Shown here: one piece after another, positions 1 to 21,957 of the stretch | Layout: every line of letters begins with the position of its first letter | How positions within the stretch are numbered: the first letter of the stretch is position 1 | Source: Leptolyngbya sp. SIO1E4 | GTDB taxonomy: Bacteria; Cyanobacteriota; Cyanobacteriia; Phormidesmidales; Phormidesmidaceae | Length of the DNA: 64,000 nucleotides | Assembly (NCBI GenBank): GCA_010672825.2 | Contig: JAAHFU020000001.1 | Span: 2,108,001-2,172,000 of the forward strand | Direction of reading: 5' to 3' | Position numbers and translations under genes: made by a program | Notes under the pieces: generated by a model | Databases searched by the model: none | What the model was told of the DNA's origin: nothing | The model's input: only the letters and a program-made list of their open reading frames with translations

Positions 1-3000
1 TTTCAACGTCTGGATGGCTCAATCACGTGGGTTTACGGGCAGACCGTTGCTGAACAGGATGCAAACGGGCAAGTAATTGGCTATGTCGGAACCATTACAG
101 ATATTAGCGATCGTAAACAGGCAGAACTTGCCCTGAAGCAAAGCGAAGCTAAAAGCCGAGCTATTTTAGCGGCAATTCCTGACCTGATGTTTTCCTTTGG
201 GTCGGATGGAACGTATCGCAGCTATATCGTTAGCAACAGCAAAATTGACATTTTCCCGACCGACCATCAGCCCCTAGGCAAGTTGATGACCGATGTGTTG
301 CCCACAGAAGTTGCCCAACGCCACGCTCAAGCTGCGCAAAAAGCCATCGCAACTGGTGAACTGCAAATCTATGAGCAAACAGTCCGTATTGGCGATCACT
401 GGCAGGATGAAGAGGTGCGAGTGATCAAAAGCAGTGAAGATGAAGTCTTCTTTATGATTCGCGATATTAGCGATCGCAAGCAAGCTGAAAGACAGCTTCA
501 GCAACTCAATCAGGCGCTAGAAACGAAAGTGCAAGCTCGCACAGCGGAGCTGCAAGAGCGGGAGCAATTCTTACAAACCTTGCTGGATGCCCTTCCCCTA
601 TCTATCTTTTGGAAAGATCGAAACTCGATTTACTTAGGCTGCAACCGCAATTTCTTGCAAGATGCGGGTCTCACTTCCATGGCGGGCATCATTGGCAAAA
701 CAGACTATGACATGCCTTGGAGCAAAACCGAAGCCGACGCCTATCGAGCCGACGATCAAAAAGTCATTGCCTTTGACACGGCCAATCTCGGAATTATCGA
801 AACCCAAATTCAGGCGGATGGTAACCAGACCTGGCTAGAAACGAATAAACTACCTCTCCATAGTCTCACCGGTGAAGTCATTGGGGTTTTGGGCACCTAT
901 CAAGACATCACCCACCGTAAACAGGCTGAACAGGCGATGAAGCGACAGCTGGCGGCGATGGAGGCCGCGATTGACGGCATTGCGATTCTGCAAGGAGATA
1001 CCTACCTTTATGTGAACCAAGCTCACCTCAACCTGTTTGGGTATGAAAGTTCTGAAGAACTGATTGGCCAATGTTGGAAATTCTTATACGCTCCAGATGA
1101 GTTAGAGCGGTTCGAGCGTGAAGTCTGGCCAGTATTAGAACGTGATTTAGCTTGGGAAGGGGAGGCGATCGCCACACGCAAAGATGGTTCCACCTTTACG
1201 GAAGGGCTATCCCTTACCCTTACTGAGGATGGATTGTTGATTTGTGTGTGCCGCGACGTCACGGATCGCAAACAAGCAGAACTCAGACTAAAGCAACAGG
1301 CAGAACAAGAACGCCTGCTCGGATCGATAACTCAACGAATGCGATCCTCTCTCAAGCTAGACGAAATTCTTAAGACCACAGTTGAGAAAGTGCATCAGGT
1401 CTTGCAGACAGATCGAGTTTTGGTCTATCAGATCTTTCCGAATGGGACAGGGGCTGCCATTGCTGAATCTGTGCATCCTGGCTGTTCTAAAGTGCTAGAT
1501 TTGGTCTTTCCGGAAGAAGTTTTTCCTCAAGAGAACTACGATCGCTACGTAGACGGCCGGATTTGCGTTCTTAGCGACTGCGAAGATGAGCGTCAACATG
1601 TCCTACCTTGCTTGGTGGAATTCCTTAAAGAAATTCAAGTGAGGGCTAAACTTGTCGTTCCTATTAGTCAAAAGCAATCTCTCTGGGGGCTCTTGATTGC
1701 TCATCAATGCGATCGTCCCCGCCAATGGAAAACATGGGAAATTAATTTGCTCCAACAAGTTGCCAATCAGTTAGCGATCGCGATTCAGCAAGCCAACTTA
1801 TTTGACCGATTGCAGCAAGAACTGACTGAACGGCAATTGGCTCAGCAGCAGCTGACTGAGCGTAACCAACAACTCGCCATTTCTAACGAAGAACTCGCTC
1901 GCGCGACTCGCCTCAAAGACGAGTTCTTAGCCAACATGAGTCACGAACTGCGGACGCCGCTTAACGCCATTTTAGGGATGGCAGAAGGGCTACAAGAAAG
2001 CGTCTTTGGGGAAGTCAATGCGCAACAGCTAAAAGCGCTCAAAACCATTGAGCGTAGTGGTTCTCACCTATTAGAGCTGATCAATGACATCCTGGATGTT
2101 GCCAAAATAGAGGCAGGACAAATAGAACTCGATTGTATTCCTGTTGCGCTAGAACCGCTCTGCACATCCAGCTTAGTTTTTATTAAACAACAAGCCCTGA
2201 AAAAACGTATCCAGCTGAAGCTTGAACTCTCTGCTCATTTGCCAGATCTCTCTATTGATGAAAGGCGTATCCGCCAGGTTCTGATCAACTTGCTGAATAA
2301 TGCGGTTAAATTTACATCTGAAGAAGGACATATCACTCTGAAAGCAAGCTTGCTAAAACGCTCTGATGATGCAGAGACACCACTTGCCCCTCATCAAGAT
2401 TACTTACGAATTTCAGTCATTGATACTGGTATCGGGATTGCTCCAGAAAATGTAAAAAAATTATTTCAACCTTTTGTCCAAGTAGATAGCGCTCTGAATC
2501 GACAATACCCCGGTACAGGGTTAGGGCTAGCTCTCGTGAAACGCATTGTCGAACTGCATGGTGGGCATGTAGGACTGATCAGCGAGGTTGGGGTTGGTAG
2601 CTGCTTCATGATTGATCTGCCCTGTACCTATACAGCTCCGCTTCCGTTTGAGTTGACGCAACCGCCCAAGCACACCCTTGAATATGCTCAATTTGAGCAG
2701 CCCTCATCGTCCGCCATTTTGCTAGCCGAAGATAACGAAGCCAATATTGCGACCCTGTCAGGTTATCTAGAAACTAAAGGTTATTGCATTGTGGTGGCTA
2801 GAGACGGTCAGGAAGCGATCGCCCTTGCCCAATCTGAGCAACCAGCTTTGATTTTGATGGACATTCAAATGCCGGGTATGGATGGCCTAGAAGCCATGCA
2901 GCACATCCGTAAAATCCCTAGCTTGGCCGATGTCCCCATCATTGCCTTAACAGCCCTGGCTATGAAGGGCGATCGTGAACGCTGTCTTGCGGCCGGAGCC

Positions 3001-3087
3001 ACTGACTACCTCAGCAAACCTGTCAAACTCAAGCAGCTAGCAAGTCTAATTCAAGAACATCTAGCATCCAAGTACCCATCGTCTTAA
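1..3087 (+). CDS. Multi-PAS/GAF hybrid histidine kinase, 5' end outside window
   Basis: Cytosolic hybrid sensor kinase, partial. The frame is open from base 1, and its first 62 codons encode the end of a PAS/PAC unit, so the ATG at 187 is internal. Numbering from base 1, PAS units end with RKQAE linkers near 40, 160, 308 and 424. A GAF domain spans about 440-607. HisKA has phospho-acceptor His648 in SHELRTP. The ATPase has the NAVKF, DTGIGI and GTGLGLAL boxes, and the C-terminal receiver has Asp954 in MDIQMP. No membrane segment is visible. The GAF domain has a Cys (codon at 1609) where bilin-binding GAF domains place theirs, but Leu follows instead of His. The transmitter-receiver part closely resembles that of the kinase at 8503-11091. 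With no output domain, it probably passes phosphate to a separate partner. Confidence 0.93.
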   Translation, partial: FQRLDGSITWVYGQTVAEQDANGQVIGYVGTITDISDRKQAELALKQSEAKSRAILAAIPDLMFSFGSDGTYRSYIVSNSKIDIFPTDHQPLGKLMTDVLPTEVAQRHAQAAQKAIATGELQIYEQTVRIGDHWQDEEVRVIKSSEDEVFFMIRDISDRKQAERQLQQLNQALETKVQARTAELQEREQFLQTLLDALPLSIFWKDRNSIYLGCNRNFLQDAGLTSMAGIIGKTDYDMPWSKTEADAYRADDQKVIAFDTANLGIIETQIQADGNQTWLETNKLPLHSLTGEVIGVLGTYQDITHRKQAEQAMKRQLAAMEAAIDGIAILQGDTYLYVNQAHLNLFGYESSEELIGQCWKFLYAPDELERFEREVWPVLERDLAWEGEAIATRKDGSTFTEGLSLTLTEDGLLICVCRDVTDRKQAELRLKQQAEQERLLGSITQRMRSSLKLDEILKTTVEKVHQVLQTDRVLVYQIFPNGTGAAIAESVHPGCSKVLDLVFPEEVFPQENYDRYVDGRICVLSDCEDERQHVLPCLVEFLKEIQVRAKLVVPISQKQSLWGLLIAHQCDRPRQWKTWEINLLQQVANQLAIAIQQANLFDRLQQELTERQLAQQQLTERNQQLAISNEELARATRLKDEFLANMSHELRTPLNAILGMAEGLQESVFGEVNAQQLKALKTIERSGSHLLELINDILDVAKIEAGQIELDCIPVALEPLCTSSLVFIKQQALKKRIQLKLELSAHLPDLSIDERRIRQVLINLLNNAVKFTSEEGHITLKASLLKRSDDAETPLAPHQDYLRISVIDTGIGIAPENVKKLFQPFVQVDSALNRQYPGTGLGLALVKRIVELHGGHVGLISEVGVGSCFMIDLPCTYTAPLPFELTQPPKHTLEYAQFEQPSSSAILLAEDNEANIATLSGYLETKGYCIVVARDGQEAIALAQSEQPALILMDIQMPGMDGLEAMQHIRKIPSLADVPIIALTALAMKGDRERCLAAGATDYLSKPVKLKQLASLIQEHLASKYPSS

Positions 3088-3609: not shown

Positions 3610-4137
3610 ATGGAATGTAGTACTCATCAGTCTGAAAAATTCATGCAGCCACTGTCTTCCAACCAGAAAACGCTGTGGTTGGCATACCAGTTGGCTCCTA
3701 AAAGCTCTGCTTATAACGTTTACACAACGACTAGGATTAGTGGAAAAGTTAATTTCAGGGTTTGGCAAGATAGCTGGCAAGCTTTAGTCGAAAAACACCC
3801 TACCTTGAGAGCTACGTATCAGTTAAAGGATACCCAGGTATTTCAAGTTTTAGACACATCCTTGTCTATAGAGATTGATTTGCAATATGTGGATGTTTCC
3901 CAGTTTGAGGAAAAGGAAATTCAACAGAAAATTTTAGAGGCAGCTAACCATCCCTTTGATCTAGAGAACAGCCCAGCTTTTAGAATCTATTTGTTTGAAC
4001 AATCCTCTCAAGAATATATTCAACTTGTTGTCATCCATGAAATCTTAGGAGAGTTACGGTCATTGTTAATTCTTCTAAGTGAGTTTTTTAATCTCTATGC
4101 TAAAAGCTCAGTCAAAAATTGCCTTTTAGTATCATGA
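3610..4137 (+). CDS. NRPS condensation domain, N-terminal lobe (split gene)
   Basis: 175 residues matching the first half of an NRPS condensation domain. Motif C1 (SSNQKTLWLAYQL...SSAYNV) is near residues 16-37, and the arch residues W..LVEKHPTLRATY are near 57-72. The C3 motif HHxxxDG is degenerate: without gaps it reads HEILGEL near residue 143, so the second, catalytic His is Glu and DG is EL. The protein stops in the linker where an intact domain would continue into the second lobe, which is found 80 bases downstream in another frame at 4218. Either this is a broken domain or a condensation-like protein made as two chains. Peptide-bond formation by the standard mechanism is unlikely. Confidence 0.75.
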   Translation: MECSTHQSEKFMQPLSSNQKTLWLAYQLAPKSSAYNVYTTTRISGKVNFRVWQDSWQALVEKHPTLRATYQLKDTQVFQVLDTSLSIEIDLQYVDVSQFEEKEIQQKILEAANHPFDLENSPAFRIYLFEQSSQEYIQLVVIHEILGELRSLLILLSEFFNLYAKSSVKNCLLVS

Positions 4138-4217
4138 TCTGCTAGCACCATACTGCTGCTCTTGCCTGATACGTTGCATCTACTCTAAATCTACAAGCTG
4201 ATAAGGTATAGGCACCC

Positions 4218-7200
4218 ATGCAATCTCCATATTTAGACTACATTAAATGGCAGGCTAACCTCCTTTCTGGAGAACGAGGAACTCAGCTAAAACGTTACTG
4301 GGAAAGCTACCTTGCTGATGCACCTATTCAGATAAATCTTCCTGCCGATTACCCACGGCCAATCGGCTCGAGTTACCGAGGTGATGTTTATCTAGATATG
4401 TTGACTGCCAATCAAGTTGAGCAGATCAAACAATTTGGGGGGGCTAACAACATTGACCTGTGCATTATATTTCTTGCTAACTTATATGCCTTCCTGGGAC
4501 GTCTTTGTAAGCAAGAAGATTTGGCCATTGGCTTGCCAATGATGTCAAGTTGGCTAGACTCCAAGCGCTCCCAAAGCGTAATTGGAATGCTTGCTAATTT
4601 GGTTCTCTGTCGGATCGACTTGAGCGAAGCGGCTTGCTTCTCTGAGATGTTAAATCAGGTTAAGTCTGCTTTTGAAGAAGTAGAACAACATCGAGATTAC
4701 CCTTTTATAGAAGTTGCTGACTATCTCAGCAAGCGTCGTGGAGAGATCACTAAAATGTCATCCTCTGTGCAGGTAGCGTTTAGTTGGGAAAAAGATCTTT
4801 GTGACTATATTGCTGACTCTGAAACTTTTTCAATTGAGCCTTATCCTTTGGGAGAACAAGGAGGAGGGGCATTTGATATCTATCTGACAGTGATGGAAGT
4901 GGGTAATACACTTCAGCTTTGCTGGAAGTACAGTACAGACCTTTTCAAACAAGCAACGATCGCCCGTTTTGCTCATCAGTTCAAAACCTTGCTCATGGCT
5001 GCCATTGCTCAACCGATGCAGCCCTTAACACAGTTGAATCTGCTATCAGATGCAGAGCGTTACCAGCTGTTAGCAGCTCAGAAGCAACGATATTGTGAGC
5101 CGATATCCCAATGTATTCATGAGTTGTTTGAGGCTCAGGTCGAGCGGACGCCTCACGAAGTAGCCGCTATCTACGAAGAAGAACACCTCACCTATCAAGA
5201 ACTCAACCAAGCTGCCAATCAACTCGCCCACTATTTGCGTGATCTAGGCGTTCAACCTGACACCTTGATCGGCATTTTTATGCCCCGCTCTTTAGAAATG
5301 ATTGTGGGGTTGTTGGGCGTTTTGAAAGCCGGTGCTGCCTACGTGCCCATTGATCCGACCTATCCGCCAGAACGACTAGCCTACATGCTTGACGATTCTC
5401 AAGTCTCTGCCGTGTTAGTACGTTCAAAATCCCTGGATCAGCTGCCGGAAACAACAGCACAGGTTATCCACCTCGCCTCAGACTGGGAAATTATTTCTCA
5501 GCAATCAACCGCGAATCCCTCGCCTACTGCGACCCCTGAAAATCTGGTCTACGTCATCTATACGTCTGGTTCAACCGGCAAACCCAAAGGCGTGATGATC
5601 GAACACCGATCGCTCGTCAATTTTGCACAACAGGCTTGTCAAGAATATGACATTACCGCAGGCGATCGCATTCTGCAATTTGCATCGTTTAGCTTTGATG
5701 CGGCTGTCGAAGAAATCTACACATGCCTGATTTCTGGAGGCACACTGGTTCTGCGTCCAGAAATCATGTTGGACTCTGTCCCTACTTTTCTCAGAACCTG
5801 TCAAGCATATGCCTTGACCGTCTTAGATTTACCGACGGCTTACTGGCATCTTCTCGTAGAAGTTTTAGCCAATCAGCCTGAACTCTCTTTACCCTCAACG
5901 TTAAGATGTCTCATCATCGGTGGAGAACGAGCCAATCCTTATTATGTGGAACAGTGGCAGCAGTTTGTTGGTGAGTCTCCCCAGCTCATCAACACCTATG
6001 GCCCAACGGAAGCGACTGTCGTCGCGACAGCCTATCGATTGCCGCCTGACATTCAAACTGAAGTAGACGGATCATCCCCCCGCAAACAGCCTGAACTCCC
6101 TATCGGTAAACCTTTAGGAAATATCAAAGTCTATGTTTTAGATGATCAGCAACAACTGGTTCCCTTTGGCCTGCCGGGAGAATTATGCCTTGGCGGTGCC
6201 GCATTGGCTCGTGGATATCTCAATGCGCCAGAAACCACCCAAAAAAGTTTTATCCCGGATGAATTTAGCGATCAATCGGGTGCCCGACTATACCGAACAG
6301 GCGATTTGGTTCGCTATCTTCCAGATGGCAATCTGGAATTTTTGGGACGCATCGATCATCAAGTTAAAATTCGCGGGTTTCGGGTTGATCTGGGTGAGAT
6401 TGAATCAACCATCACCCATTATCCTGGAATTCGCCAAGTCTTTGTGACGGCTCAGCCAGATCGTCTGGGTCACCAACAGTTGGCAGCCTATATTGTCTCT
6501 GATCTGATTCCTGATCGCATTCCTTACCAAACTGACTGTTTGCTGGAATATGCAGATCAGTTAGTCAAGCTGAAAACCGTAGATATCTCCTCATTTGGCG
6601 TTGGCCTGTTAAAGGCACCTAAAGCCTTGAGTCAAGGAGATTCGGTTCGCATTCGCTTTTTATTACCTGGCCAAGAAGATGAGTACTGGTTTGACGGAAC
6701 CGTCATCTGGCACCAGGGCGATCGTATGGGGGTTCAGTTGCAGCCGACAGAGCGAGATCAAACGCTCCTCAAGCAAAGTGCTGCCTATCTACTGGAATCT
6801 CAAGGCATTCTCAAGGCACTGCAGCGAACAGTCGAAGGAGCCCTGCGGAAATACCTGAAGCAGAAACTCCCTCACTACATGATTCCGACCAACTTTATCT
6901 TAATCAACGTGTTGCCGCTGACACCCAACGGCAAGGTTGATCGGCGTCAATTACCGCCTCCTCACCTCACGCAAATTGGGCTCATTGAGTCAGACCGCAG
7001 CTTACCTGGTACCCAAACTGAGCAGACTTTGCGGAAGATGTGGTCTACACTCCTTGGGGTTAATCAGATTGAGCTAGAAGATAACTTTTTTGACTTGGGC
7101 GGTAATTCGCTGCTTGCTATTCAATTCATCAATCGCTTAAGCGAGGAATTCCAAGTAGACATTCCCGTGTGGATGCTCTTTAAACACTCCACAATTACTA

Positions 7201-8462
7201 GCCTTGCAAAAGTCGTAGATGATCTTAGGCAAAAGCATCAGTCTCCTGATGCGCAGTGGGTACAGTCACCAACCTATAATCTCCAGGCTGATGCACAACT
7301 TGACCCGGCTATTCAGTATGCTACGAAGATTGACTTAGCAAAAGTGATTGCGCCGTCAGGCATTCTGCTCACTGGCCCAACAGGGTTTGTTGGACCATAT
7401 CTCTTATCACAGCTTTTACAGCAGACAGATGCTGATATATACTGCCTTGCCCGTTACCGTTCTGGCCAAGCAGCCAGACGGCGGATCGAAGATCAACTCA
7501 CTGCTTATGAACTCTGGCATCCAGAATACCGGCAGAGAATCATTCCGGTGATTGGAGATCTTGCTAAACCTTTATTGGGATTATCAGAATCCCAGTTTCA
7601 GGATCTAGCAAATAGCATAGATGTGATTTATCACAATGGTGCCTGGGTAAACTTTGTTTATCCTTACTCAGCTTTACAGGCAGCCAACGTTCAAGGAACT
7701 CAAGAAGTTCTTAGATTAGCGGGCTGTGCAAAAACTAAACCCGTTCATTTGGTGTCTACTCTGTCTGTTTTCTCTGACGCCTATGCTCAAAAAGAATTAG
7801 TGCTCGAAACTGATCAGCCGCGCTTTGAGGATCAGCTACAAACAGGATATGACCAAAGTAAATGGGTCGCAGAGCAATTAGTGAAAGCAGCCCAAAATCG
7901 TGGACTTCCTGCAACGATTTACAGATTAGGAACATTACTTGGAGATAGCGAAACTGGCATCACGAAAAAACCGAACGACTTTTTCTGTAGCCTACTTAAA
8001 GGGTGTTTGCAGCTTGGGAAAGCCCCGATTCTGTCAAGAAATCTTAACATTACTCCAGTCAATTATGCTTCCCAGGCAATCGTACACATATCCCAGAATC
8101 CTACTTGTTTTGGACAAGCATTTCATGTCATCAATCCTCAATATATCTCTTGGAAAAGCTTGGTAGCTTGTCTCCAGTTCAGTGGTTATTCTGTCCAAAT
8201 GGAGCCGTATGAGCAATGGCTATCGCGGCTAAAGCAGCAGGTTCAAGCGGGGTGTAAGAATGATTTAGCCACATTCTTACCCATATTAGGTTCTGAGAAA
8301 GATTTCCCGTTAGAAACCCCTGAATTTGATGCCGACCTGTCTCAAAAAGCTCTTTCTAAATCTGTGAAGAAATGCCCCAAAATTAACGGGATTTTAATAA
8401 AAAGTTACTTGGATTATTTCCGTAAAAGTGGCGATTTGAAGTTCGATTCTCCTCAGCTATAA
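4218..8462 (+). CDS. NRPS-like reductase: C-lobe, A domain with PilZ-like insert, carrier, thioester reductase
   Basis: 1414-residue one-module enzyme predicted to activate a carboxylic or amino acid, load it on its carrier domain and release it reductively as aldehyde or alcohol. Residues 1-280 are the second lobe of the condensation domain, with C4 YLDYIKW and the C6-like YPFIEV. The A domain spans about 300-905: A3 YTSGSTGKPKG, A5 TYGPTE, A8 RGFRVDLGEIE, A10 NGKVDR. The by-eye specificity code is D-A-E-D-I-G-T-V-V-K, for which I know no assigned substrate. Residues about 763-865, between A8 and A10, hold a PilZ-like segment with D789xSxxG794. The carrier has GGNSLLA near 963. The reductase (about 1040-1310) has a TGPTGFVG Rossmann loop and YDQSK. 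The start is fixed by a TAG at 4209; an AAGG at 4203 precedes it. The kinase at 8503 follows after 40 bases. Confidence 0.9.
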   Translation: MQSPYLDYIKWQANLLSGERGTQLKRYWESYLADAPIQINLPADYPRPIGSSYRGDVYLDMLTANQVEQIKQFGGANNIDLCIIFLANLYAFLGRLCKQEDLAIGLPMMSSWLDSKRSQSVIGMLANLVLCRIDLSEAACFSEMLNQVKSAFEEVEQHRDYPFIEVADYLSKRRGEITKMSSSVQVAFSWEKDLCDYIADSETFSIEPYPLGEQGGGAFDIYLTVMEVGNTLQLCWKYSTDLFKQATIARFAHQFKTLLMAAIAQPMQPLTQLNLLSDAERYQLLAAQKQRYCEPISQCIHELFEAQVERTPHEVAAIYEEEHLTYQELNQAANQLAHYLRDLGVQPDTLIGIFMPRSLEMIVGLLGVLKAGAAYVPIDPTYPPERLAYMLDDSQVSAVLVRSKSLDQLPETTAQVIHLASDWEIISQQSTANPSPTATPENLVYVIYTSGSTGKPKGVMIEHRSLVNFAQQACQEYDITAGDRILQFASFSFDAAVEEIYTCLISGGTLVLRPEIMLDSVPTFLRTCQAYALTVLDLPTAYWHLLVEVLANQPELSLPSTLRCLIIGGERANPYYVEQWQQFVGESPQLINTYGPTEATVVATAYRLPPDIQTEVDGSSPRKQPELPIGKPLGNIKVYVLDDQQQLVPFGLPGELCLGGAALARGYLNAPETTQKSFIPDEFSDQSGARLYRTGDLVRYLPDGNLEFLGRIDHQVKIRGFRVDLGEIESTITHYPGIRQVFVTAQPDRLGHQQLAAYIVSDLIPDRIPYQTDCLLEYADQLVKLKTVDISSFGVGLLKAPKALSQGDSVRIRFLLPGQEDEYWFDGTVIWHQGDRMGVQLQPTERDQTLLKQSAAYLLESQGILKALQRTVEGALRKYLKQKLPHYMIPTNFILINVLPLTPNGKVDRRQLPPPHLTQIGLIESDRSLPGTQTEQTLRKMWSTLLGVNQIELEDNFFDLGGNSLLAIQFINRLSEEFQVDIPVWMLFKHSTITSLAKVVDDLRQKHQSPDAQWVQSPTYNLQADAQLDPAIQYATKIDLAKVIAPSGILLTGPTGFVGPYLLSQLLQQTDADIYCLARYRSGQAARRRIEDQLTAYELWHPEYRQRIIPVIGDLAKPLLGLSESQFQDLANSIDVIYHNGAWVNFVYPYSALQAANVQGTQEVLRLAGCAKTKPVHLVSTLSVFSDAYAQKELVLETDQPRFEDQLQTGYDQSKWVAEQLVKAAQNRGLPATIYRLGTLLGDSETGITKKPNDFFCSLLKGCLQLGKAPILSRNLNITPVNYASQAIVHISQNPTCFGQAFHVINPQYISWKSLVACLQFSGYSVQMEPYEQWLSRLKQQVQAGCKNDLATFLPILGSEKDFPLETPEFDADLSQKALSKSVKKCPKINGILIKSYLDYFRKSGDLKFDSPQL
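6510..6812 (+). other. PilZ-like domain inserted in the adenylation domain
   Basis: Encodes residues about 765-865 of the NRPS-like protein. An ordinary A domain needs only a short linker between LAAYIV and LRKYLKQKLPHYMIP, so about 100 residues are extra. The insert has the PilZ signature DxSxxG (D789-I-S-S-F-G794), followed by alternating beta-strand-like segments ending in MGVQLQ. The companion RxxxR motif is only half present (Leu763, Arg767), so cyclic-di-GMP binding is uncertain. Methyltransferase domains are known to insert at this point in other NRPSs. Confidence 0.7.
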
Positions 8463-8502: not shown

Positions 8503-11091
8503 ATGTTAGCAAACTGGATTTATAATGCCCGAAAAAATAATTCATTGGCTAAGCAAGCCTTAGTCAAAATTTCCTTGGGCGTCACTCTAGTCATTGTTGC
8601 ATCAACAACGCTGAGCTATTTCTACACTCTATATCTCTTAGAACGGGAAACTAAGCAAAAGCTCAGGCAATATATTCTGGAACGCTCCAAGCGGGAAGAA
8701 TCCTTATTTGACTTGGCTAAGGACAATGTTGAATTTGCTAAAAGCATTGCCCTCCAGCAGCTAACAACTCCATCAGAGCAAAATTATGCTGAGCAGTACG
8801 AGCAATTTTTTGTCCAGCATGAAGATGGGGTGACTCGCAACCGCCCAGAGTATCCCTATTATCAATATGCGGCGCTCTTTTTAGATGATGAAGTTAACGT
8901 TACCGATGATGTGAAGCGCCGGGTTGTGACTACCTTTGAACTCACGACTCATTATGGCCGGGCTTGGAATAATCGCTTTCCTAATCTTTATTTCTTGGCC
9001 CCTGAGAACTTTTCGATGGGGTACTGGCCAACATTTGATTGGCCTTCAGAAGCGACCCCAGATGTTGACGAGACAGAAGAGGAATATTTTTACCTGTCGA
9101 CCCCTGACTATAACCCAGAGCGTAAAACCGTTTGGACAGGTGTTTATATTGATCCGGTGGCTGAGCAGTGGTTAGTGTCGGTGATATCACCGATTGATAT
9201 CGATGATCAACATGTGTTGACCGTGGGCCAAGATGTTCCCCTGGATGAACTCATCTCACGCACCATCAATCAGACTCTAGAAGGAACTTACAATATCATC
9301 TTCCGTGAAGACGGTCGCTTGATTGCTCATCCTCAACTCAGAGATAGAATCATCGCAAGCGAAGGGGAACTGACGCTGATGGAAGTTGGGGATGCTAGCC
9401 TTGAAGAAATTTTCAAGCTCGCTACAAATAGCGAAGATATCCCTGTTGTTATCAATAATCAGCAAAGTCAAGAATTCCTAGGGGTGACTAAGCTTGCTGG
9501 GCCAGATTGGTATTTTGTCACCGTCTTCCCAAAATCTATTCTGGCTAAACGTGCTTCTAACTTAGCAATTTTTGTTTTACTGCTTGGAATTGGGGTATTA
9601 GTACTAGAAATTATTGTTTTGTCTTGGGTTTTACGATATGATGTGACACTGCCTTTGAAAAGACTAACTACAGCAACAGCTCAGATTGCAGCTGATAACT
9701 TTAACATTAAAGTAGATGAATCCAAAAAAAATGAGTTAGGACGATTAGCTATCTCATTTAATCAGATGACTGAAAAACTTCAGTCATCTTTTCGGGCATT
9801 AGAAGAAGCGAATTCAGATTTGGAAATTCGGGTTGAAGAGCGTACGCAAGAGCTAAAAACAGCTAAAGAATCTGCAGATACTGCTAATCGTGCTAAGAGT
9901 GAATTTCTTGCCGCAATGAGCCATGAGTTGCGCACTCCGCTCAACGCCATCCTAGGCATGTCTGAAGTGCTACAAGACCCTATGTTTGGGAAAACTAGCG
10001 AACAACAATTCAAAGCCTTAAAAACTATTGAGCGGAGTGGCTCTCATTTATTAGAACTCATTAACGATATTTTGGATGTTGCCAAAGTTGAAGCTGGCCG
10101 CATGGAACTTGATTGCACACCCATTGCGATCGCACCATTATGCCAAGCCAGTTTGGCATTTATTAAGCAACAGGCTTTGAAGAAGAACATTGAGCTTGAG
10201 GTTAAATTGCCGTTCGATCCGCCTGATTTACTCGTGGATGAACGGCGTATCCGTCAAGTCTTGATCAATCTGCTGATTAATGCAGTCAAATTTACCCCAG
10301 AGAAAGGACGCATTACCTTAGAGGTCAGCCAACCCCAAGCAATCAGCCAACCCCCAGAAGACAGCTGCCCTGACAACTTAGAGGCTGCTACTGATGTAGA
10401 GTCTCCTGCTCAGCACTCTGTTCGAATTGCCATTATTGATACCGGTATTGGCATTGCTCCAGATAGTCTCAAGAAGCTGTTCCAACCTTTTGTCCAAATT
10501 GATAGCGCGTTGAACCGTCAATATACTGGAACCGGCTTAGGACTCGCGCTCGTAAAGCGCATCGTTGAGCTCCACGGTGGGCAGGTGGAGGCCACTAGCA
10601 AGGTGGGGGTTGGCAGCTGCTTTGCTATCGATCTGCCGTGTACTGACGTTGCGTCCTCTCGCAAGGAATCCACCCCTCAACTCGAACCTGCCAACATTGA
10701 ACCTAGCCAACCCAAGGCAGCCTCCCCTGTGATCTTGCTAGCTGAGGACAACGAAGCCAATATCGCCACGTTTTCTGGCTATTTGGAAACTAAAGGCTAC
10801 TGCATCGTGGTGGCCAGAAATGGACGGGAAGCGGTTGCACTGGCTCAGTCTGAAAACCCATCTCTGATTTTGATGGATATTCAAATGCCAGAGATGGATG
10901 GTCTGGAAGCAACACAGCACATCCGTCGAGAGGCTCACTTGGCCGATGTACCCATTATTGCTTTGACTGCGTTAGCAATGCCGGGAGATCGCGATCGCTG
11001 CCTTGCGGCGGGTGCCACTGATTATCTCAGCAAGCCCGTTAAGATGAAACAATTGGTCGCAACCATACAAAAACTGTTAGCGTCTCACTGA
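8503..11091 (+). CDS. Cache-HAMP hybrid histidine kinase
   Basis: 862-residue membrane sensor kinase. Transmembrane helix 1 is at about 21-46. An extracytoplasmic double-Cache-like sensor spans about 60-345 ([10 protein letters not shown] and WYFVTVFP motifs). Helix 2 is at about 353-377, followed by HAMP 378-430, HisKA with His474 in SHELRTP, an ATPase with [19 protein letters not shown], and a C-terminal receiver with Asp792. It begins 40 bases after the NRPS-like gene and is probably co-transcribed with it. From HisKA to the receiver it is a close paralogue of the kinase ending at 3087, while the sensory halves are unrelated. This suggests two inputs into one output. The ligand is unknown; the product of the neighbouring enzyme is one speculative candidate. 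An IS630-type terminal repeat starts four bases after the stop codon. Confidence 0.93.
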
Positions 11092-11551: not shown

Positions 11552-11983
11552 ATGACCAGTTTAGAAGAGCTTTTCTGCCACATCGATGATTTCTGCCAAG
11601 CCTTTGAACCCCAGTGGCAAGCCAAGCTGCTTGGCCATGGATTGCAGCGGCGGAAGCGTGCTCGCTCCCTGAGCCTCAGTGAAATCATGACGATTCTGGT
11701 GAGCTTTCATCAACAGTCCTATCGCAACTTCAAGCACTTCTATCAGAAACATGTCTGTCGCTATTGGGCGGCGGCATTTCCCCAACTTCCTAGCTATCAA
11801 CACTTTGTCGATTGGATACCGTCTACTTTGATACCCTTGTGTGTCTATCTCAAACACGGCTTTGGCGACTGCAGTGGCATCAGCTTTATCGATGCGACCG
11901 CCCTGAAAGTCTGTCATAACCGGCGCATCAACCAGCATCGCGTGTTTGATGAATTGGCCGCACGGGGCAAGACCTCGGTCGGA
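11552..11983 (+). pseudogene. IS982-family transposase, N-terminal fragment
   Basis: Begins MTSLEELFCHIDDFCQAF and contains the IS982-type segments RSLSLSEIMTIL, GISFIDATALKVCHNRR and ARGKTSVG. A full IS982 transposase is roughly twice as long; here the region after GKTSVG is missing and the frame runs into IS630 sequence (LSITRKKK), stopping at 12020-12022. The left end of the insert is probably near 11476 (AACGTGAGTACGGG). No right end is present, so the element was deleted internally after insertion. Confidence 0.82.
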
Positions 11984-12605
11984 CTGAGCATCACGCGAAA
12001 AAAGAAGTCTCAAAGCCAGTGAAGTTTATAGCCAGGCGAAACAGCAGCAACGCCGCGATTATTGGCAAAGCATTCGGGATATCGCGGCCGAAGATTTGGT
12101 GTTTCTCGATGAAACGGGCGTCAACTTGGCGATGGTGTTGCTTTACGCACGTGCGCCGCGAGGCCAACGAGCCTATGCCCAGCAACCGAAAGGTCGAGGT
12201 AAGAATCTTTCCATTATTGGTGCAATGAGTCTTAAGGCCGGATTCCTAGAGGGCCTGAGCTTCACGGGCGGCACTCCCGGCGATGTCTTTCTGTGGTTTA
12301 TCGAAACGCTTCTGTCGCCAGTCTTGTGGCGCGGAGCGGTCGTGGTGATGGACAACTTACCGGCCCATAAAGTTGATGGGGTGCGTCAGGCGATTGAAGC
12401 GGTGGGCGCACGACTCCTTTATCTGTCCCCCTATTCACCGGATTTCAATCCTATCGAAAATCTCTGGGCGAAATTGAAGGGGCATTTGAGAGCGGTTGAG
12501 GCGCGCACCCCAGAGGTATTGCATGAAGCGATCTCTCAGGGACTCACTCTGATCACCCTCCAGGATGTACGCCACTGGTTCACCCACTGTTGCTACTGTG
12601 CTTGA
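11984..12605 (+). pseudogene. IS630-family transposase, C-terminal catalytic part
   Basis: Resumes the transposase with LSITRKKK, then, after a frame change at an A6G run (11998-12004), continues with SLKASEVYSQAK. It holds the DDE-type catalytic core: VFLDETGVNLAM, VVMDNLPAHK and the DFNPIENLWAKLK block. It ends in TGA 12603-12605, just inside the right terminal repeat. The catalytic residues are intact, but the N-terminal DNA-binding half is separated from them. Confidence 0.85.
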
Positions 12606-14637: not shown

Positions 14638-15454
14638 ATGGTGGCGTGTACTGCTTTCCCCTGAAAAAGGAAGATTAATCGCTACCTGGAAAATGACCAT
14701 ACTGTGGAGATTAGTGCACGATTTCTCTGGAAATTGCTCTCGAATAGAGTCTGAGGATGAATTGCAGATATTTTTCGTAGTGGATATCAGGGAGGGTAAT
14801 CCTGACAACTCGACCTTGTTATTCATGCATGGTCTTTTATGCTAACGACTGGTGTAGCAGGGACTGCTGCACGCTAGTAATCATTGGGTGATTTTCTAGG
14901 AAGCGTATGACGACTGCTCCTCCTCTTCACGATCGCCCCTGACCTCCTGTTAGCTTTGGCCTGCCCTGGATAGGTGAAACGATCAATTTCTTGTTTGACC
15001 CCCAATTTGCCCATAAACGCAGGCTCGATACGGAATGAAGGGGGTGGCAGCGTGACTCCTACGGCAATACACCTAGAAACTGCTGCCCAATCAAGACTTA
15101 AATTTGAATCCTGTGCCCCCTTTGCGACTCTGTTCTGGTTTAGTCGTGAAGTTGGATCAACGCTGAGCAGGCATTAAAAACTAAGGGTTGGCAGTTGAAA
15201 AAACGGCAATCCGCTTGATTAGCAGTGTTGGCCGTTGCGCCGCACGCATGAAACCAACGGTATTTGTAAAGTGGTGGTATCCATGCGGTATCAATACAGC
15301 GGTAGTGCTGACAGCTGATGGTTGCTGAGTATAGCTGCTACTGCCTAATTGGCTAGATCGGGAACACTATACTAAGAGCACCGAACTCTCTAGATGCCCA
15401 TCCTTCGAGGCAGTTTTGGGGGAGGGGTGTGGTGATTTCATCGAGCATCCTGGT
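14638..15454. other. Gene-free stretch
   Basis: No open frame here has coding character or a recognisable product. It contains CCTAGAAACTGCTGC near 15069, a 15-mer also present in the repeat-rich gap at about 34132. The promoter of the AAA ATPase gene must lie at the right end. Confidence 0.5.
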
Positions 15455-17386
15455 ATGGCTATGAACGACTTTTTCAAAGGCTTTGAACAACTCCTAGAAC
15501 TCGCGAAAACCCTGGAGGAAAAGGCAGAGAACGGAGAATTAAAAACGGATATTCGTGTTCATAGTCGTAGCTTTAGCAACATTCCGCGCCAGGGCAATAT
15601 TCCCAAGGATATTGGGGTTTCGCGGATTTGCACCCCCGGTTCTGATGAGGATGCTGGCGATGATGGCATCAGTGAAGAGGTCATCATTACCCCACCGCCT
15701 GCCAATACTCCAGGAGAGCCCAGAGAGGCGGCTACCAATGACTCATCCAGGTCAACGGCTAACAGTGCGTCTCAGGCTGCACAGGCAAGTTCTGCCCTTC
15801 CTTCCTTGCAAGATGTCGGTGGACTGGCACCCGTGATTCAGGAGCTGCGAGAAGTGGTAGAAATTCCTTTAAAGCGGCCTGAACTGTTGGCGCAGCTAGG
15901 TTTAGAGCCGCCAAAAGGCGTCTTATTAGTGGGGCCGCCAGGCACAGGCAAAACCCTAACGGCTAGATCGCTGGCTGAAGCTTTGGGCGTTAGCTACATT
16001 GCAATCGTCGGGCCTGAGGTCATGGGTAAATATTATGGTGAGGCAGAAGGGCGGCTCCGCAAAGTGTTCGAGAAAGCTGCGAAGTCGGCTCCTTGTCTGA
16101 TCTTCATTGACGAGATTGACAGCCTTGCCCCCGATCGCAGCCAGGTTGAAGGAGAAGTAGAGAAACGTCTGGTGGCTCAGCTGCTGAGCTTGATGGATGG
16201 CTTTGCGAAAACTCAGGGTGTGATTGTGTTAGGGGCAACAAATCGTCCTGATCATTTAGATCCCGCGCTGCGGCGCCCTGGACGGTTTGATCGCGAAGTC
16301 CAGTTTCGAGTACCGGATCGGGCTGGGCGATTAGAAATTTTGCAGATTCAAACTCGCCAGATGCCCCTGGATGAGTCGGTGAGTTTAGGGGTGATCGCTG
16401 ATTTAGCTGTCGGCATGGTCGGCGCAGATCTCAAAGCACTGTGTCAAAAAGCAGCTTACTTAGCCCTGCGGCGGCAGGTCCCTTCCCTCAATGATCCAAT
16501 TCCTGAAAATTTACAGGTCTCCCAGGCCGATTTTGATGCTGCTCTGAAGGCCGTGAATCCTTCGGTGTTGCGAGCCGTAGAGGTAGAGTCACCGCAAGTT
16601 GATTGGGAAGCTATTGGTGGTCTAGAAGACGCCAAACGCACGCTGCAAGAATCTGTAGAGGGGGCACTCCTGTCCCCAGAGCTGTATCAGCAAACAGGCG
16701 CTACAGCCCCTCGAGGTATTCTTCTGTGGGGGCCACCAGGCACTGGAAAAACCCTACTGGCCAAAGCCCTTGCAGCCCAAGCTCACGCCAATTTCATCGC
16801 CGTTAACGGCCCAGAATTGCTCAGCCGTTGGGTGGGGGCTGCTGAACAGGCCGTTCGAGAACTGTTTGCTAAGGCGAGACAGGCAGCTCCCTGTGTGGTG
16901 TTTATTGATGAGATTGATACGCTGGTTCCCGTGAGGGGGCAGTTCCAGGGTGATTCAGGGGTGAGCGATCGCGTGGTGGGTCAGCTCCTCACTGAACTCG
17001 ATGGTCTGCGGACATGTACGGACGTTCTGCTGGTGGGGGCAACGAACCGTCGCAGTGCCCTTGATCCAGCGCTGCTCAGGGCAGGACGCCTGGATTTGCA
17101 AATTGAGGTTGGCTTGCCGAATGCAGCCAGTCGGCTCAAGATTCTGCATGTCCATAACCAAGCGCGCCCCTTGGCCAACGTTGATTTAGAGGCCCTTGCC
17201 CAGCAGACCGACGGTTGGAATGGTGCAGATCTGGCGCTCCTCAGCAACCAAGCTGCCTTAGAAGCCGTGCAGGAATACCGGGCCTCAGGTGCTGCAGACC
17301 CCACACAAATCCGCATTCAGCCACAGCATTTTCAGAGTGCCTTTGAGGTATTGCAACGCCAAAAACAGATGACTTCTGAGGGCTAG
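15455..17386 (+). CDS. Cdc48-like double AAA ATPase
   Basis: Protein with two AAA modules, predicted to use ATP to unfold or remodel protein complexes in the cytosol. An acidic, Ser/Thr/Pro-rich N-terminal part of about 120 residues precedes the first module. Each module has Walker A GPPGTGKT and Walker B (LIFIDEID, VVFIDEID). The first also shows the ATNRPDHLDPALRRPGRFDR sensor/arginine-finger region; the second has ATNRRSALDPALLRAGRLD. ATG 15455 (MAMNDFFKGF) is preferred over the upstream TTG at 15416; Met 15461 is also possible. The N-terminal part lacks a recognisable Cdc48 N domain, so adaptor use probably differs from the eukaryotic enzyme. It stands alone, convergent with the GNAT gene. 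Confidence 0.9.
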   Translation: MAMNDFFKGFEQLLELAKTLEEKAENGELKTDIRVHSRSFSNIPRQGNIPKDIGVSRICTPGSDEDAGDDGISEEVIITPPPANTPGEPREAATNDSSRSTANSASQAAQASSALPSLQDVGGLAPVIQELREVVEIPLKRPELLAQLGLEPPKGVLLVGPPGTGKTLTARSLAEALGVSYIAIVGPEVMGKYYGEAEGRLRKVFEKAAKSAPCLIFIDEIDSLAPDRSQVEGEVEKRLVAQLLSLMDGFAKTQGVIVLGATNRPDHLDPALRRPGRFDREVQFRVPDRAGRLEILQIQTRQMPLDESVSLGVIADLAVGMVGADLKALCQKAAYLALRRQVPSLNDPIPENLQVSQADFDAALKAVNPSVLRAVEVESPQVDWEAIGGLEDAKRTLQESVEGALLSPELYQQTGATAPRGILLWGPPGTGKTLLAKALAAQAHANFIAVNGPELLSRWVGAAEQAVRELFAKARQAAPCVVFIDEIDTLVPVRGQFQGDSGVSDRVVGQLLTELDGLRTCTDVLLVGATNRRSALDPALLRAGRLDLQIEVGLPNAASRLKILHVHNQARPLANVDLEALAQQTDGWNGADLALLSNQAALEAVQEYRASGAADPTQIRIQPQHFQSAFEVLQRQKQMTSEG

Positions 17387-18546: not shown

Positions 18547-21500
18547 ATGCGGCTATCTAAATTTCAACGTCAAGAGCAGGGAAACAAGCCCAAGCTACTG
18601 GTTGTAGATGACGAACCAGACAACCTTGATCTACTCTACCGAGCGTTTTACCGAGAATTTAAAGTGTTGCGCGCCGAAAGTGGCCATGCAGCCCTGGCGA
18701 TCTTGGCAGAACAGCCAGATGTCGCCATTGTGATTTCTGACCAGCGCATGCCGGGGATGAGCGGCACAGAGTTTCTGCGGCAGACGGCTGCGAAACATCC
18801 CAATATCATGCGGATTATTTTGACGGGTTACACCGATGTCGGTGATCTTGTGGATGCAATTAACGAAGGCAAGGTCTTCAAATACGTCACCAAGCCCTGG
18901 GAAGATGAGCATCTCCGGGCTGTCGTCAAGCAAGCCCTCGAAACCCATCAAGTGCTGAGAGCCCGTACCGAAGAACTGCAGCGCAGCCTGCGGCAAGAGA
19001 GCCTGCTCAATGCCATTACCCATACCATTCGCAGTGCCGCTAGCTCTCAACGCATGATGCAGACCATTGTAGAAACCGTCGGCGCGCTGATGGGGTCAGA
19101 TATCTGCGTTGTGCAGCCCTACTATGACCCAATGCCTGCGATTCCTGATCGCTTTGTGTACGTTTCCTCTGATGCGGCAGTTGCCTCAGAAACGCTACAG
19201 AATGGTGAGGCTTCTCTGGTGTGGGAGGTCGCCGAAATCACGGTCTTAACCCCGGTCGACTTTGAGACGAGCCCAGAGTTCGTAGCCCGTCGGTCGACCT
19301 ATGAAGCACTCAATATTCAATCGACACTGCTGATTCCCCTCATGGGGCAGCAAACTTTAATAGCTGTCTTAGCATTACACCATTGTGGAACACCCCATGA
19401 GTGGAGCAGTAGCGAAATGCAGTTACTGGTCACCATGGCTGATCAGGTGGGTCTGGCCCTGTCTCAAGCGAGAACGTACGAACAGATGCAAGCCCTGGCC
19501 CAACGCGAACATTTGCTCAACACCGTGACCCAGGCCATTCGCTCCAGCCTGGAACCCCAGGCTATCTTTGCTGCCATTACGCAAGAATTGGGTCAGGTGC
19601 TCAGCGTTGATAGCTGTGTCCTATCTTTATGGACTGCCTCGGATGAGTACATGCGATGTGTGGGCTTGTATGAAGGGGGTGAAAACACGGCGACTGCAGC
19701 GGAAGAATTGTCCAACATCGCTGTGCACATGGGGGACGATACCCTGCCCCGATCTCAGGTGCCGATTCGCAGTAATCCGCTCTTACAGCACCTCTTGGCC
19801 AACCAGCAGCCTTTGGCAATCCATGACCTCAGCCAGCACCCAGAGATGGCAGTGCAAGATCCCCCGCCCTTACGATTAGCGGCGCGATCGCTCTTAGTGG
19901 TACCGCTGATCACTGAAGGGCAAATTATTGGGAGTATTTCTCTCCGCCATTTTCATCACCCCCACACCTGGAGCCAGGATGAAATTTCGCTAGCACAATC
20001 GGTGGCAGCCCAGGCTGCGATCGCAGTGCAGCAATCTCGGCTGTATCAAACTACCCGAGAACAGGCAGAGCAGTTAATGGCCTTGGATCGCCAAAAAACT
20101 GAATTTTTTCAAAACATTTCCCATGAGTTTCGTACCCCCCTCACCTTGACCTTAGGCCCTTTAGAAGGAGCTGTGAATCAAGGCCAAGGCCTGGACTACG
20201 AGCAGTCCACCGTTGCCCTGCGCAATGCTCGCCGACTGCTCCGCCTCGTGAATCAACTCTTAGACTTACAGCGCTTAGATGCTGGGCGCATGCAGCCTAC
20301 GTTTAGACCGGTTAATCCAGAAGCCTTTGTAGACGAGATTGTGACGGCCTTTCAGCCTTACTGTCATCGCAAAGGGCTCCATCTTGTTGCCCAATTATCT
20401 CCGTGCCCCACCCTCTATCTGGACTTAGAAAAGTTCGACAAGGTTCTTTATAACCTGCTGTCCAACGCGGTTAAATTTACCCCAGAAGGGGGCACGATCA
20501 CCGTCACGTTGGCTCCTAATGCTAGCCAGTGCGTTTTGACGGTACAAGATACTGGTATCGGGATTCGAGAGGATCAGCTGCCTTATTTGTTTGAGCGCTT
20601 TCGCCAGGCAGATGGATCGACCAATCGCCGCCATGAGGGGACTGGGCTGGGGTTAGCCCTCGTGAAAGAACTGGTTGCATTACACCATGGGCGTATCACC
20701 GTGGAATCGACTTATCGCGAGGGTTCGGCGTTTCGCATCACCTTACCGACAGGACGTCATCACCTACCCAGCGACCAGATTGTTGAAAATGCTGCCTTCA
20801 CAGAGACAAGCCGCGCCGTGATTGAGTTAGCGGATATTGTCCTCACAGAGGATGTATGGCATCCAACGTCTTCAGAACAGGCTGTGACGGTTCCTCCCAC
20901 GACCCCTCATATTCTGGTGGTCGATGACAACAGCGATTTACGCGCGTATATTTCCAATGTCTTACAGCGTCAAGGGTATCAAGTTCGGACGGCGCACTGT
21001 GGCGCCATTGCCCTGGAGATGATGCAAACTTACACGCCCGATCTGATCCTCAGTGATTTAATGATGCCTGGCATGTCTGGGTTAGACCTGATTTATCAAG
21101 TCCGTCAGAGCGATCGCCTGTGCAGTATTCCCGTGGTGTTGTTGACGGCCAAAGTAGATGATGAAACCCGTATTGAGGGGGTTGAACAGGGCGCTGACGC
21201 CTATCTGGGCAAGCCCTTTAACGATCGAGAACTGTTGGCAGAAGTCCGCAATCTGCTGGCATTAAAGGCGAATGAGCGGCGCGTCGCTGAACTCAACCAA
21301 TATTTAACAGAGTCGGTGTTGCGACGATTTTTGCCGGCGTCTTTGGTCAATAAAGCTGCAACGGGTGAACTTCAGCTTGATCTCAAACCTGAGCCGCGCT
21401 TGATTACCGTACTGTTTAGCGACATTGTTGGGTTTACACCCTTGTCTAATCTGCTGGGTTCTCAACGGGTTGCACAGCTCTTGAACGAATATCTAGCGGC

Positions 21501-21957
21501 CATGACCGATGCCATTTTCGCCAGCGGTGGCACTGTGGATAAGTTTATGGGGGACGGTGTGTTGGCGCTATTTGGGGCACCGGAAGATTTACCCACGGCA
21601 GAACAAGCACAGCGAGCTTTGGCCGCGGTGAACCGTATGCATGCAGCCTTAGCTGACCTCAATCAACAGTGGCAACGGGAGGGAATGCAAGCGATTGATG
21701 TGCGCTATGGCATTCACCAAGGGGATGCGGTGGTAGGCATGTTTGGTAGTGCCGTACGGGCGGACTACACCGCGATCGGCGCGTGTGTCAACATTGCATC
21801 TCGTTTGCAAGAAGTGGCTGATCCCAACGGCGTGCTGGTTTCTTGGGAATTGGCACAACACTTGCCTGAAGCACCCATTTTAGAAACCCGCTCTGTGATG
21901 CTGCGGGGCCTCACAACGCCGATGCAGGTTTGTAGCATTCGCCTGACTACGCCATAG
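18547..21957 (+). CDS. cyaC: CyaC-like receiver/GAF/histidine kinase/receiver/adenylate cyclase
   Basis: 1136-residue soluble signalling protein predicted to make cAMP under phosphorelay control. Order: receiver 1 (about 15-130, Asp65), two GAF domains (about 165-320 and 330-500), HisKA (His526 in SHEFRTP), HATPase_c ([19 protein letters not shown]), receiver 2 (about 790-910, Asp837), then a class III cyclase (about 940-1130). The cyclase has both metal Asp (959 and 1003), the adenine-selecting pair Lys999/Asp1073, and Asn1082/Arg1086, so it is adenylate- rather than guanylate-specific. This is the architecture of cyanobacterial CyaC. Neither GAF shows an obvious bilin Cys-His pair. The start codon ATG 18547 is reasonable; the receiver begins near residue 15. 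Confidence 0.92.
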   Translation: MRLSKFQRQEQGNKPKLLVVDDEPDNLDLLYRAFYREFKVLRAESGHAALAILAEQPDVAIVISDQRMPGMSGTEFLRQTAAKHPNIMRIILTGYTDVGDLVDAINEGKVFKYVTKPWEDEHLRAVVKQALETHQVLRARTEELQRSLRQESLLNAITHTIRSAASSQRMMQTIVETVGALMGSDICVVQPYYDPMPAIPDRFVYVSSDAAVASETLQNGEASLVWEVAEITVLTPVDFETSPEFVARRSTYEALNIQSTLLIPLMGQQTLIAVLALHHCGTPHEWSSSEMQLLVTMADQVGLALSQARTYEQMQALAQREHLLNTVTQAIRSSLEPQAIFAAITQELGQVLSVDSCVLSLWTASDEYMRCVGLYEGGENTATAAEELSNIAVHMGDDTLPRSQVPIRSNPLLQHLLANQQPLAIHDLSQHPEMAVQDPPPLRLAARSLLVVPLITEGQIIGSISLRHFHHPHTWSQDEISLAQSVAAQAAIAVQQSRLYQTTREQAEQLMALDRQKTEFFQNISHEFRTPLTLTLGPLEGAVNQGQGLDYEQSTVALRNARRLLRLVNQLLDLQRLDAGRMQPTFRPVNPEAFVDEIVTAFQPYCHRKGLHLVAQLSPCPTLYLDLEKFDKVLYNLLSNAVKFTPEGGTITVTLAPNASQCVLTVQDTGIGIREDQLPYLFERFRQADGSTNRRHEGTGLGLALVKELVALHHGRITVESTYREGSAFRITLPTGRHHLPSDQIVENAAFTETSRAVIELADIVLTEDVWHPTSSEQAVTVPPTTPHILVVDDNSDLRAYISNVLQRQGYQVRTAHCGAIALEMMQTYTPDLILSDLMMPGMSGLDLIYQVRQSDRLCSIPVVLLTAKVDDETRIEGVEQGADAYLGKPFNDRELLAEVRNLLALKANERRVAELNQYLTESVLRRFLPASLVNKAATGELQLDLKPEPRLITVLFSDIVGFTPLSNLLGSQRVAQLLNEYLAAMTDAIFASGGTVDKFMGDGVLALFGAPEDLPTAEQAQRALAAVNRMHAALADLNQQWQREGMQAIDVRYGIHQGDAVVGMFGSAVRADYTAIGACVNIASRLQEVADPNGVLVSWELAQHLPEAPILETRSVMLRGLTTPMQVCSIRLTTP

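Follow-up and report, generated by a model that had tools for sequence, protein, structure and literature searches.

The window analysed here, 64,000 nucleotides of contig JAAHFU020000001.1 of Leptolyngbya sp. SIO1E4, contains a nonribosomal peptide synthetase (NRPS) gene whose adenylation (A) domain carries an extra segment of about 104 residues. Sequence profiles and a predicted structure confirmed the assignment of this segment as a PilZ domain nested in the A subdomain, between motifs A8 and A9. Related inserts are found in other cyanobacteria and in Beggiatoales (giant sulfur bacteria), and we hold, with confidence that is about evenly balanced, that they form a family of PilZ-interrupted A domains in which PilZ would act as a sensing or docking module on the mobile A subdomain.

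A PilZ domain nested between motifs A8 and A9

The main open reading frame (ORF) of the gene (4218-8462, 1414 amino acids) encodes half a condensation (C) domain, an A domain, a peptidyl carrier protein (PCP) domain and a thioester reductase (R) domain, in that order, with the Pfam matches AMP-binding at residues 304-668, PilZ at 767-853, PP-binding at 936-999 and NAD_binding_4 at 1051-1288. An earlier note on this DNA, made from the sequence alone, had taken 4218-8462 for the enzyme; this is not the whole gene, since position 4218 falls inside the C domain according to Pfam, the main ORF holds only its second part, and its start lies in another frame at 3610-4137. The features of the gene are as follows:

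3610..4137, + strand: condensation domain, first part, in a frame different from that of the main ORF (Pfam Condensation profile 4-160; tblastn with the intact relative L062_14039_18880)
4224..5072, + strand: condensation domain, second part, residues 3-285 (Pfam profile 173-456)
5127..6377, + strand: A-domain core through motif A8, residues 304-720 (Pfam AMP-binding 304-668; motif positions), specificity code read as DAEDIGTVV
6378..6500, + strand: A subdomain, first part after A8, residues 721-761 (alignment and AlphaFold2 model)
6501..6830, + strand: predicted PilZ insert with the helical extension joining it to the A subdomain, residues 762-871 (Pfam PilZ 767-853; AlphaFold2; same boundaries in 43 distinct inserts)
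6516..6518, + strand: R767, the sole arginine kept of R-x-x-x-R (43 of 43 inserts; arginine at 763 in none)
6582..6599, + strand: DISSFG, the D/N-x-S-x-x-G motif, residues 789-794 (D in 43, S in 42 and G in 42 of 43 inserts)
6867..6887, + strand: A9 motif LPHYMIP, residues 884-890 (motif position)
6927..6956, + strand: A10 motif NGKVDRRQLP, residues 904-913, catalytic lysine kept (motif position)
7023..7214, + strand: peptidyl carrier domain, residues 936-999, with FFDLGGNSL (Pfam and motif)
7368..8081, + strand: thioester reductase NAD_binding_4, residues 1051-1288 (Pfam)

Motifs A3, A8 (residues 710-720) and A10 are all present in this A domain. The PilZ profile (PF07238) matched the main ORF at E 4.8e-11, with 43.3 bits against a cut-off of 22.5, and the insert alone at E 1.1e-12, which together with a PilZ-like AlphaFold2 fold bears out the earlier proposal of a PilZ-like domain inside the A domain. 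That proposal had placed about 100 extra residues between A8 and A10. Counting by hand from the 'IE' closing A8 through 'NGK', we obtained 179 residues in the window protein versus 75 in an insert-free module of L062, that is about 104 extra. They sit after A8 and before A9, leaving these two motifs and A10 intact. The segment is absent from modules 1 and 3 of the L062 protein, which carry no insert and whose loop at this site is naturally short.

The insertion site is constant in all inserts: the '..LVAYIV' strand precedes it, and the helix that leads into A9 follows. It is, as had been suggested, the site used by methyltransferases: in L056 a neighbouring module has a methyltransferase in the loop equivalent to that where PilZ sits, both domains following '..LVAYIV' or '..LVAYVV' and preceding the helix ahead of A9. 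The known methyltransferase-interrupted A domains (TioS A-M-A, PDB 5wmm; McyA; KtzH) use the same loop of the A subdomain, likewise with A8, A9 and A10 intact on both sides.

The AlphaFold2 model of the window A domain, built from 32 insert-bearing sequences, had a mean pLDDT (predicted local distance difference test) of 87.6, with the blocks of the insert at 79-94, and it folded the insert as strands (484-552, model numbering) and a helix (556-572) in the order of a PilZ domain. The 50 best Foldseek rows of this model were A domains only, because the PilZ part is a minority of the chain. The best of them, PDB 4d4i (54% identity over 467 columns), and 4d56 have 481-482 residues and no room for the insert; we take both, whose entry titles speak of 'bi-specificity of A-domains', to be ApnA A1 of the anabaenopeptin synthetase. 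A sequence search of the PDB with the insert profile gave weak matches only, the best being PilZ type IV fimbriae assembly proteins (E 0.0047), followed by BcsA (0.032).

Clearer structural matches came from a stand-alone relative of the insert, described below, whose AlphaFold2 model had a mean pLDDT of 89.8. Residues 43-141 of this model matched the PilZ structures of BcsA (Z 13.8, 97 residues), Alg44 (Z 12.9), MotI and MrkH (VIA), and residues 1-195 matched A subdomains (TycB, Z 14.0, 40% identity, about 89 residues aligned), with TioS 5wmm also among the matches (Z 12.6). We therefore rejected as almost certainly wrong the reading of the segment as an ordinary A-domain stretch or a chance similarity, which is ruled out by the Pfam score, by the structural matches that the stand-alone relative gave in Foldseek and VIA and by the absence of the segment from the insert-free L062 modules.

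Inserts occur in cyanobacteria and giant sulfur bacteria

Searching the phylum with residues 755-915 as the query, we found the full insert in at least 10 of 386 genomes, the window's own included, at 19 places; this is a lower bound, as at most nine candidates were scored per genome. Insert identity was 41-50% in eight further cyanobacterial genomes and a ninth (G053) gave a weak match only. Any match at 1e-5 was obtained in 94 of the 386 genomes, the other rows listed spanning mainly A9-A10. A scan of named genomes returned 25 loci, 19 of them cyanobacterial (Microcoleus, Nostoc, Kamptonema, Oscillatoria, Laspinema, Leptolyngbya, Argonema and others) and six from Parabeggiatoa/Thioploca. A profile search then recovered 49 inserts in the 36 loci scanned, or 43 distinct ones, that of the window among them, after copies and one frame-broken record had been dropped. 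Their hosts are cyanobacteria and Beggiatoales. Among 398 genomes from the phylum of G387, G387 alone had a match at 1e-25, and within its order 15 of 42 genomes had matches at 1e-12. A search of viral contigs gave no relative, and neither did one of a plasmid collection (tblastn, 1e-15).

Some synthetases carry more than one copy of the unit. In L035 (9652-17148, minus strand, residues 1980-2375) and L047 (4958-11572, residues 1682-2075) one A core is followed by two tandem A-subdomain/PilZ units, both A10 lysines being kept in each case, and in L035 a partial carrier domain seemingly lies between the two units. In L044 (1759-12858, minus strand, residues 3075-3290) two tandem PilZ domains stand within one A subdomain.

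Stand-alone A-subdomain/PilZ proteins

In six of the 42 genomes of the order (G386, G387, G389, G399, G400 and G401) the unit also occurs by itself, as ORFs of 198-224 amino acids that start just after A8 and comprise the A subdomain with PilZ:

L106, 4329-4958: stand-alone A-subdomain/PilZ protein
L107, 2250-2813: stand-alone A-subdomain/PilZ protein
L108, 6776-7363: stand-alone A-subdomain/PilZ protein
L109, 7414-8001: stand-alone A-subdomain/PilZ protein
L110, 7374-7994: stand-alone A-subdomain/PilZ protein
L111, 5865-6446: stand-alone A-subdomain/PilZ protein

The G386 frame is less clean than the others: it has a stop codon where A8 would be, and its first ATG/GTG/TTG is found only some 15 residues further on, within the subdomain. 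Using the whole open frame for G386, Pfam detected PilZ over its cut-off in all six proteins and AMP-binding_C in five, four of them over the cut-off. The arginine and DxSxxG are kept in all six. The A10 lysine, present in 60 of 60 readable module rows, is replaced by Q in five and by E in one. The six proteins form a single tree branch (100/99), and their ratio of nonsynonymous to synonymous substitution rates (dN/dS) was 0.09-0.31 in the 10 of 15 pairs for which it could be computed, some with saturated dS.

Their neighbourhoods are alike as well. At all six loci rfbA-like and rfbC-like dTDP-rhamnose genes lie upstream on the same strand, with rfbB at four and rfbD downstream at two; at three loci one or two ORFs intervene between rfbC and the PilZ gene. 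Family searches confirmed rfbA in L106, L108 and L110, rfbC in L106, L108, L109 and L111, rfbB in L107, L108 and, less specifically, L109, and rfbD in L106 and L107, the remaining assignments being by-eye sequence likeness. A methyltransferase-like protein in L110 and L111 scored below every cut-off. We considered whether the stand-alone ORFs could be frameshift debris of metagenome assemblies and rejected this, because they occur in six genomes with a similar start after A8, the same neighbourhood and an A10 lysine that is always replaced. The existence of such a stand-alone form, with this lysine replaced, argues for a function apart from adenylation. Its occurrence beside rhamnose genes is the best indication that the unit does something by itself, without telling what.

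Half of the cyclic-di-GMP motif is kept

Across the 43 inserts R767, D789, P817, G827 and W831 are invariant, and S791, G794 and G838 are found in 42, which puts R767, D789, S791 and G794 among the most conserved positions of the insert. DxSxxG had been noted at D789-S791-G794 and lies exactly there. R870 is present in all 39 rows that reach that position, and the barrel is followed by a conserved helical extension (..YLLETQGFLKVLQR..). The R-x-x-x-R ahead of the barrel that marks cyclic-di-GMP-binding PilZ domains had been described as only half kept, and this is so throughout the family: R767, which when aligned by eye with a further PilZ protein encoded in this genome (L001, ..RQAHR..) corresponds to the second arginine of the motif, stands by itself, an arginine at i+4 being present in one of the 43 inserts. 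From the alignment, then, all 43 inserts have lost one half of the classical cyclic-di-GMP motif and keep the other half together with DxSxxG. Because the other arginine is missing in every insert, classical cyclic-di-GMP binding is doubtful, and binding of a protein, or of a nucleotide in some unusual way, would be likelier.

PilZ domains of the BcsA/Alg44 type keep R-x-x-x-R and bind cyclic-di-GMP. The insert has in common with them the barrel fold, D-x-S-x-x-G and a PilZ domain built into a synthase; unlike them, it is nested in a subdomain and lacks one arginine. As for the messenger, the window genome has 22 GGDEF matches, the nearest about 20 kb from the insert, and eight other insert genomes have 11-41 each. 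A genetic link to diguanylate cyclase genes was not supported, as no clear linkage appeared in the window genome or in these eight, among the matches listed.

The insert is indifferent to substrate and under purifying selection

Specificity codes were read by alignment to motifs, and no amino acid was assigned to them. Among 32 insert-bearing A domains we read 21 different codes, and because of this diversity a substrate-specific role of the insert was rejected. In one genome (G143; L041 and L042) all five modules of one region carry the insert despite differing codes. Such diversity would also argue against substrate tailoring by PilZ, which is not known as an enzyme.

According to PMC8097286, A cores are exchanged in natural recombination and A subdomains stay in place, and the identity pattern across the regions of the A domain (pairwise identity averaging 0.32 for the specificity region, 0.44 for PilZ and 0.67 for A9-A10) agrees broadly with that rule. 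Pairwise PilZ distances correlated at 0.69 with those of the N part of the A core and at 0.58 with those of A9-A10; they track the A core at least as well, so the insert has not always travelled with just the A subdomain. In seven Nostocales genes (21 pairs each) the insert gave dN/dS values of 0.10-0.42 and the A core values of 0.09-0.19, which indicates that the insert is under purifying selection.

A proposed role and its alternatives

The history that we propose begins with a single entry of PilZ into the A subdomain, inferred from the common site and from similarity because resolution is weak in the middle of the insert tree. PilZ would then have stayed with the A subdomain through exchanges of A cores with different specificities. 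The PilZ-bearing unit would also have moved between cyanobacteria and giant sulfur bacteria, and in the latter it may have been cut free to take on a separate job beside the dTDP-rhamnose genes. From one reaction step to the next the A subdomain rotates by about 140 degrees (PMC8097286). A PilZ barrel nested in it would move along between the adenylating and thiolating positions, and a ligand or protein bound on the R767/DxSxxG face, or close to it, could bias the subdomain towards one of them or tether the synthetase, and so set the timing of amino acid loading by the module. Purifying selection, the retention of R767 and DxSxxG, substrate indifference and the lysine-less stand-alone form would agree with such a regulatory role. 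We put forward only tentatively the more specific form of this idea, in which a messenger or signalling partner gates the NRPS through PilZ and the excised unit is a free regulator of rhamnose-polysaccharide synthesis.

What the barrel would bind is a separate matter. It may be a true receptor for cyclic-di-GMP or another nucleotide that gates adenylation, with a residue of the A subdomain such as R870 replacing the missing arginine. The near-invariance of R767, D789, S791 and G794, the presence of R870 in every row that reaches it and the GGDEF matches of the insert genomes speak for this, as does the position of the stand-alone copies next to polysaccharide-precursor genes, polysaccharide synthesis being a setting in which PilZ proteins often act. 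We nevertheless regard it as rather unlikely, given the arginine missing from all inserts and the lack of clear linkage to GGDEF genes among the matches listed; XCC6012, a PilZ protein without intact motifs, showed no reliable binding (PMC3131395). A half-lost nucleotide motif, the conserved helical extension after the barrel, independence from substrate and a stand-alone version without the catalytic lysine are what one would expect if PilZ were instead a protein-protein docking module that recruits a trans-acting enzyme or anchors the synthetase, in the manner of cyclic-di-GMP-independent PilZ proteins such as PlpA, which works in motility without binding cyclic-di-GMP (PMC8316039). PlpA and XCC6012 likewise combine a PilZ fold with a function and no measured classical cyclic-di-GMP binding; they differ from the insert in not being derived from an enzyme, and PlpA has the motif residues while XCC6012 has only SxxG. 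Docking is a possibility to which we give limited credence: no partner was identified, cyanobacterial neighbourhoods not having been surveyed systematically.

The insert could also be a tolerated passenger, which entered once, persists since recombination moves whole A subdomains, and folds without doing anything more. Its patchy distribution and a site known to tolerate inserts (PMC11355689, PMC8949500) are compatible with this. The insert dN/dS, the retention of the R, D, S and G residues, the spread over two phyla and the retention of an excised form in six genomes are not easily explained by it, and we consider it possible but improbable. Several observations do weigh against the sensing or docking module that we favour: insert dN/dS tends to lie somewhat above that of the A core; the middle of the insert tree is poorly supported, as mentioned; the residue at i-4 of R767 is arginine in 0 of 43 inserts and leucine in 33; the pocket residues can be conserved for folding alone; and among the matches listed a GGDEF lies within 20 kb of an insert in one of the eight insert genomes (G354, at a distance of about 11 kb).

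The window copy and its surroundings

The A-PilZ-PCP-R frame of the window gene runs through 1414 uninterrupted codons. Its C domain is split between two frames (3610-4250), and its HHxxxDG position reads HEILGEL. A Pantanalinema relative of the same C-A(PilZ)-PCP-R organisation (L062_14039_18880, 1614 amino acids, 40% identity over 1430 columns) covers both C-domain parts in one frame and reads HHIVSDL. Because of the split C domain the window copy is probably decaying, to judge from its sequence, although the frame break may be of biological origin or a sequencing error; as a gene that may be decaying, it is therefore not the best copy for assays. In the insert tree the window row is one of three end branches flagged as long. 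We found no match to the gene at E 1e-25 in 58 relatives, a set that includes 35 members of its own family, and nothing else resembling any of its domains in the window or the preceding 13 kb (L045; tblastn, 1e-4). An NRPS module without the insert is present elsewhere in the genome (L046).

Two hybrid histidine kinases with similar C-terminal halves (187-3087 and 8503-11091) flank the NRPS gene. Downstream of it and of the second kinase, two short transposase fragments from distinct families (DDE_Tnp_1_3 and DDE_3) adjoin each other at 11552-12605. Further on, 15416-17386 encodes a presumably Cdc48-like protein that combines two AAA ATPase domains with AAA lids, and 18547-21957 a hybrid sensor kinase that has GAF domains, two receiver domains and, at its C terminus, an adenylate/guanylate cyclase domain.

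Relation to known interrupted A domains

The nested domains listed in reviews are methyltransferase, monooxygenase, oxidase, and reductase or ketoreductase (PMC8949500, PMC11355689), and an epimerase insert is also on record (PMC8807600). As far as these sources go, the nested domains of known interrupted A domains are all enzymes, whereas PilZ is a binding domain. The word PilZ is absent from the main texts of PMC8949500, PMC11355689 and PMC8097286, and among the papers listed in searches of the open-licence literature we found no report of PilZ inside an A domain, although one may exist elsewhere. Because Pfam detects PilZ in such proteins, the architecture has probably been visible in databases without having been discussed.

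A binding domain at the A8-A9 site would permit post-translational switching of an assembly line, and a PilZ-nested A domain would be a natural template for controllable synthetases. The stand-alone form reduces the question to a protein of about 200 residues. It is an NRPS fragment apparently recruited for another purpose, and if its reading as a regulator is true, part of an assembly line would have turned into a signalling protein. In the bacteria that carry the insert, peptide assembly may thus be under a hitherto undescribed kind of control.

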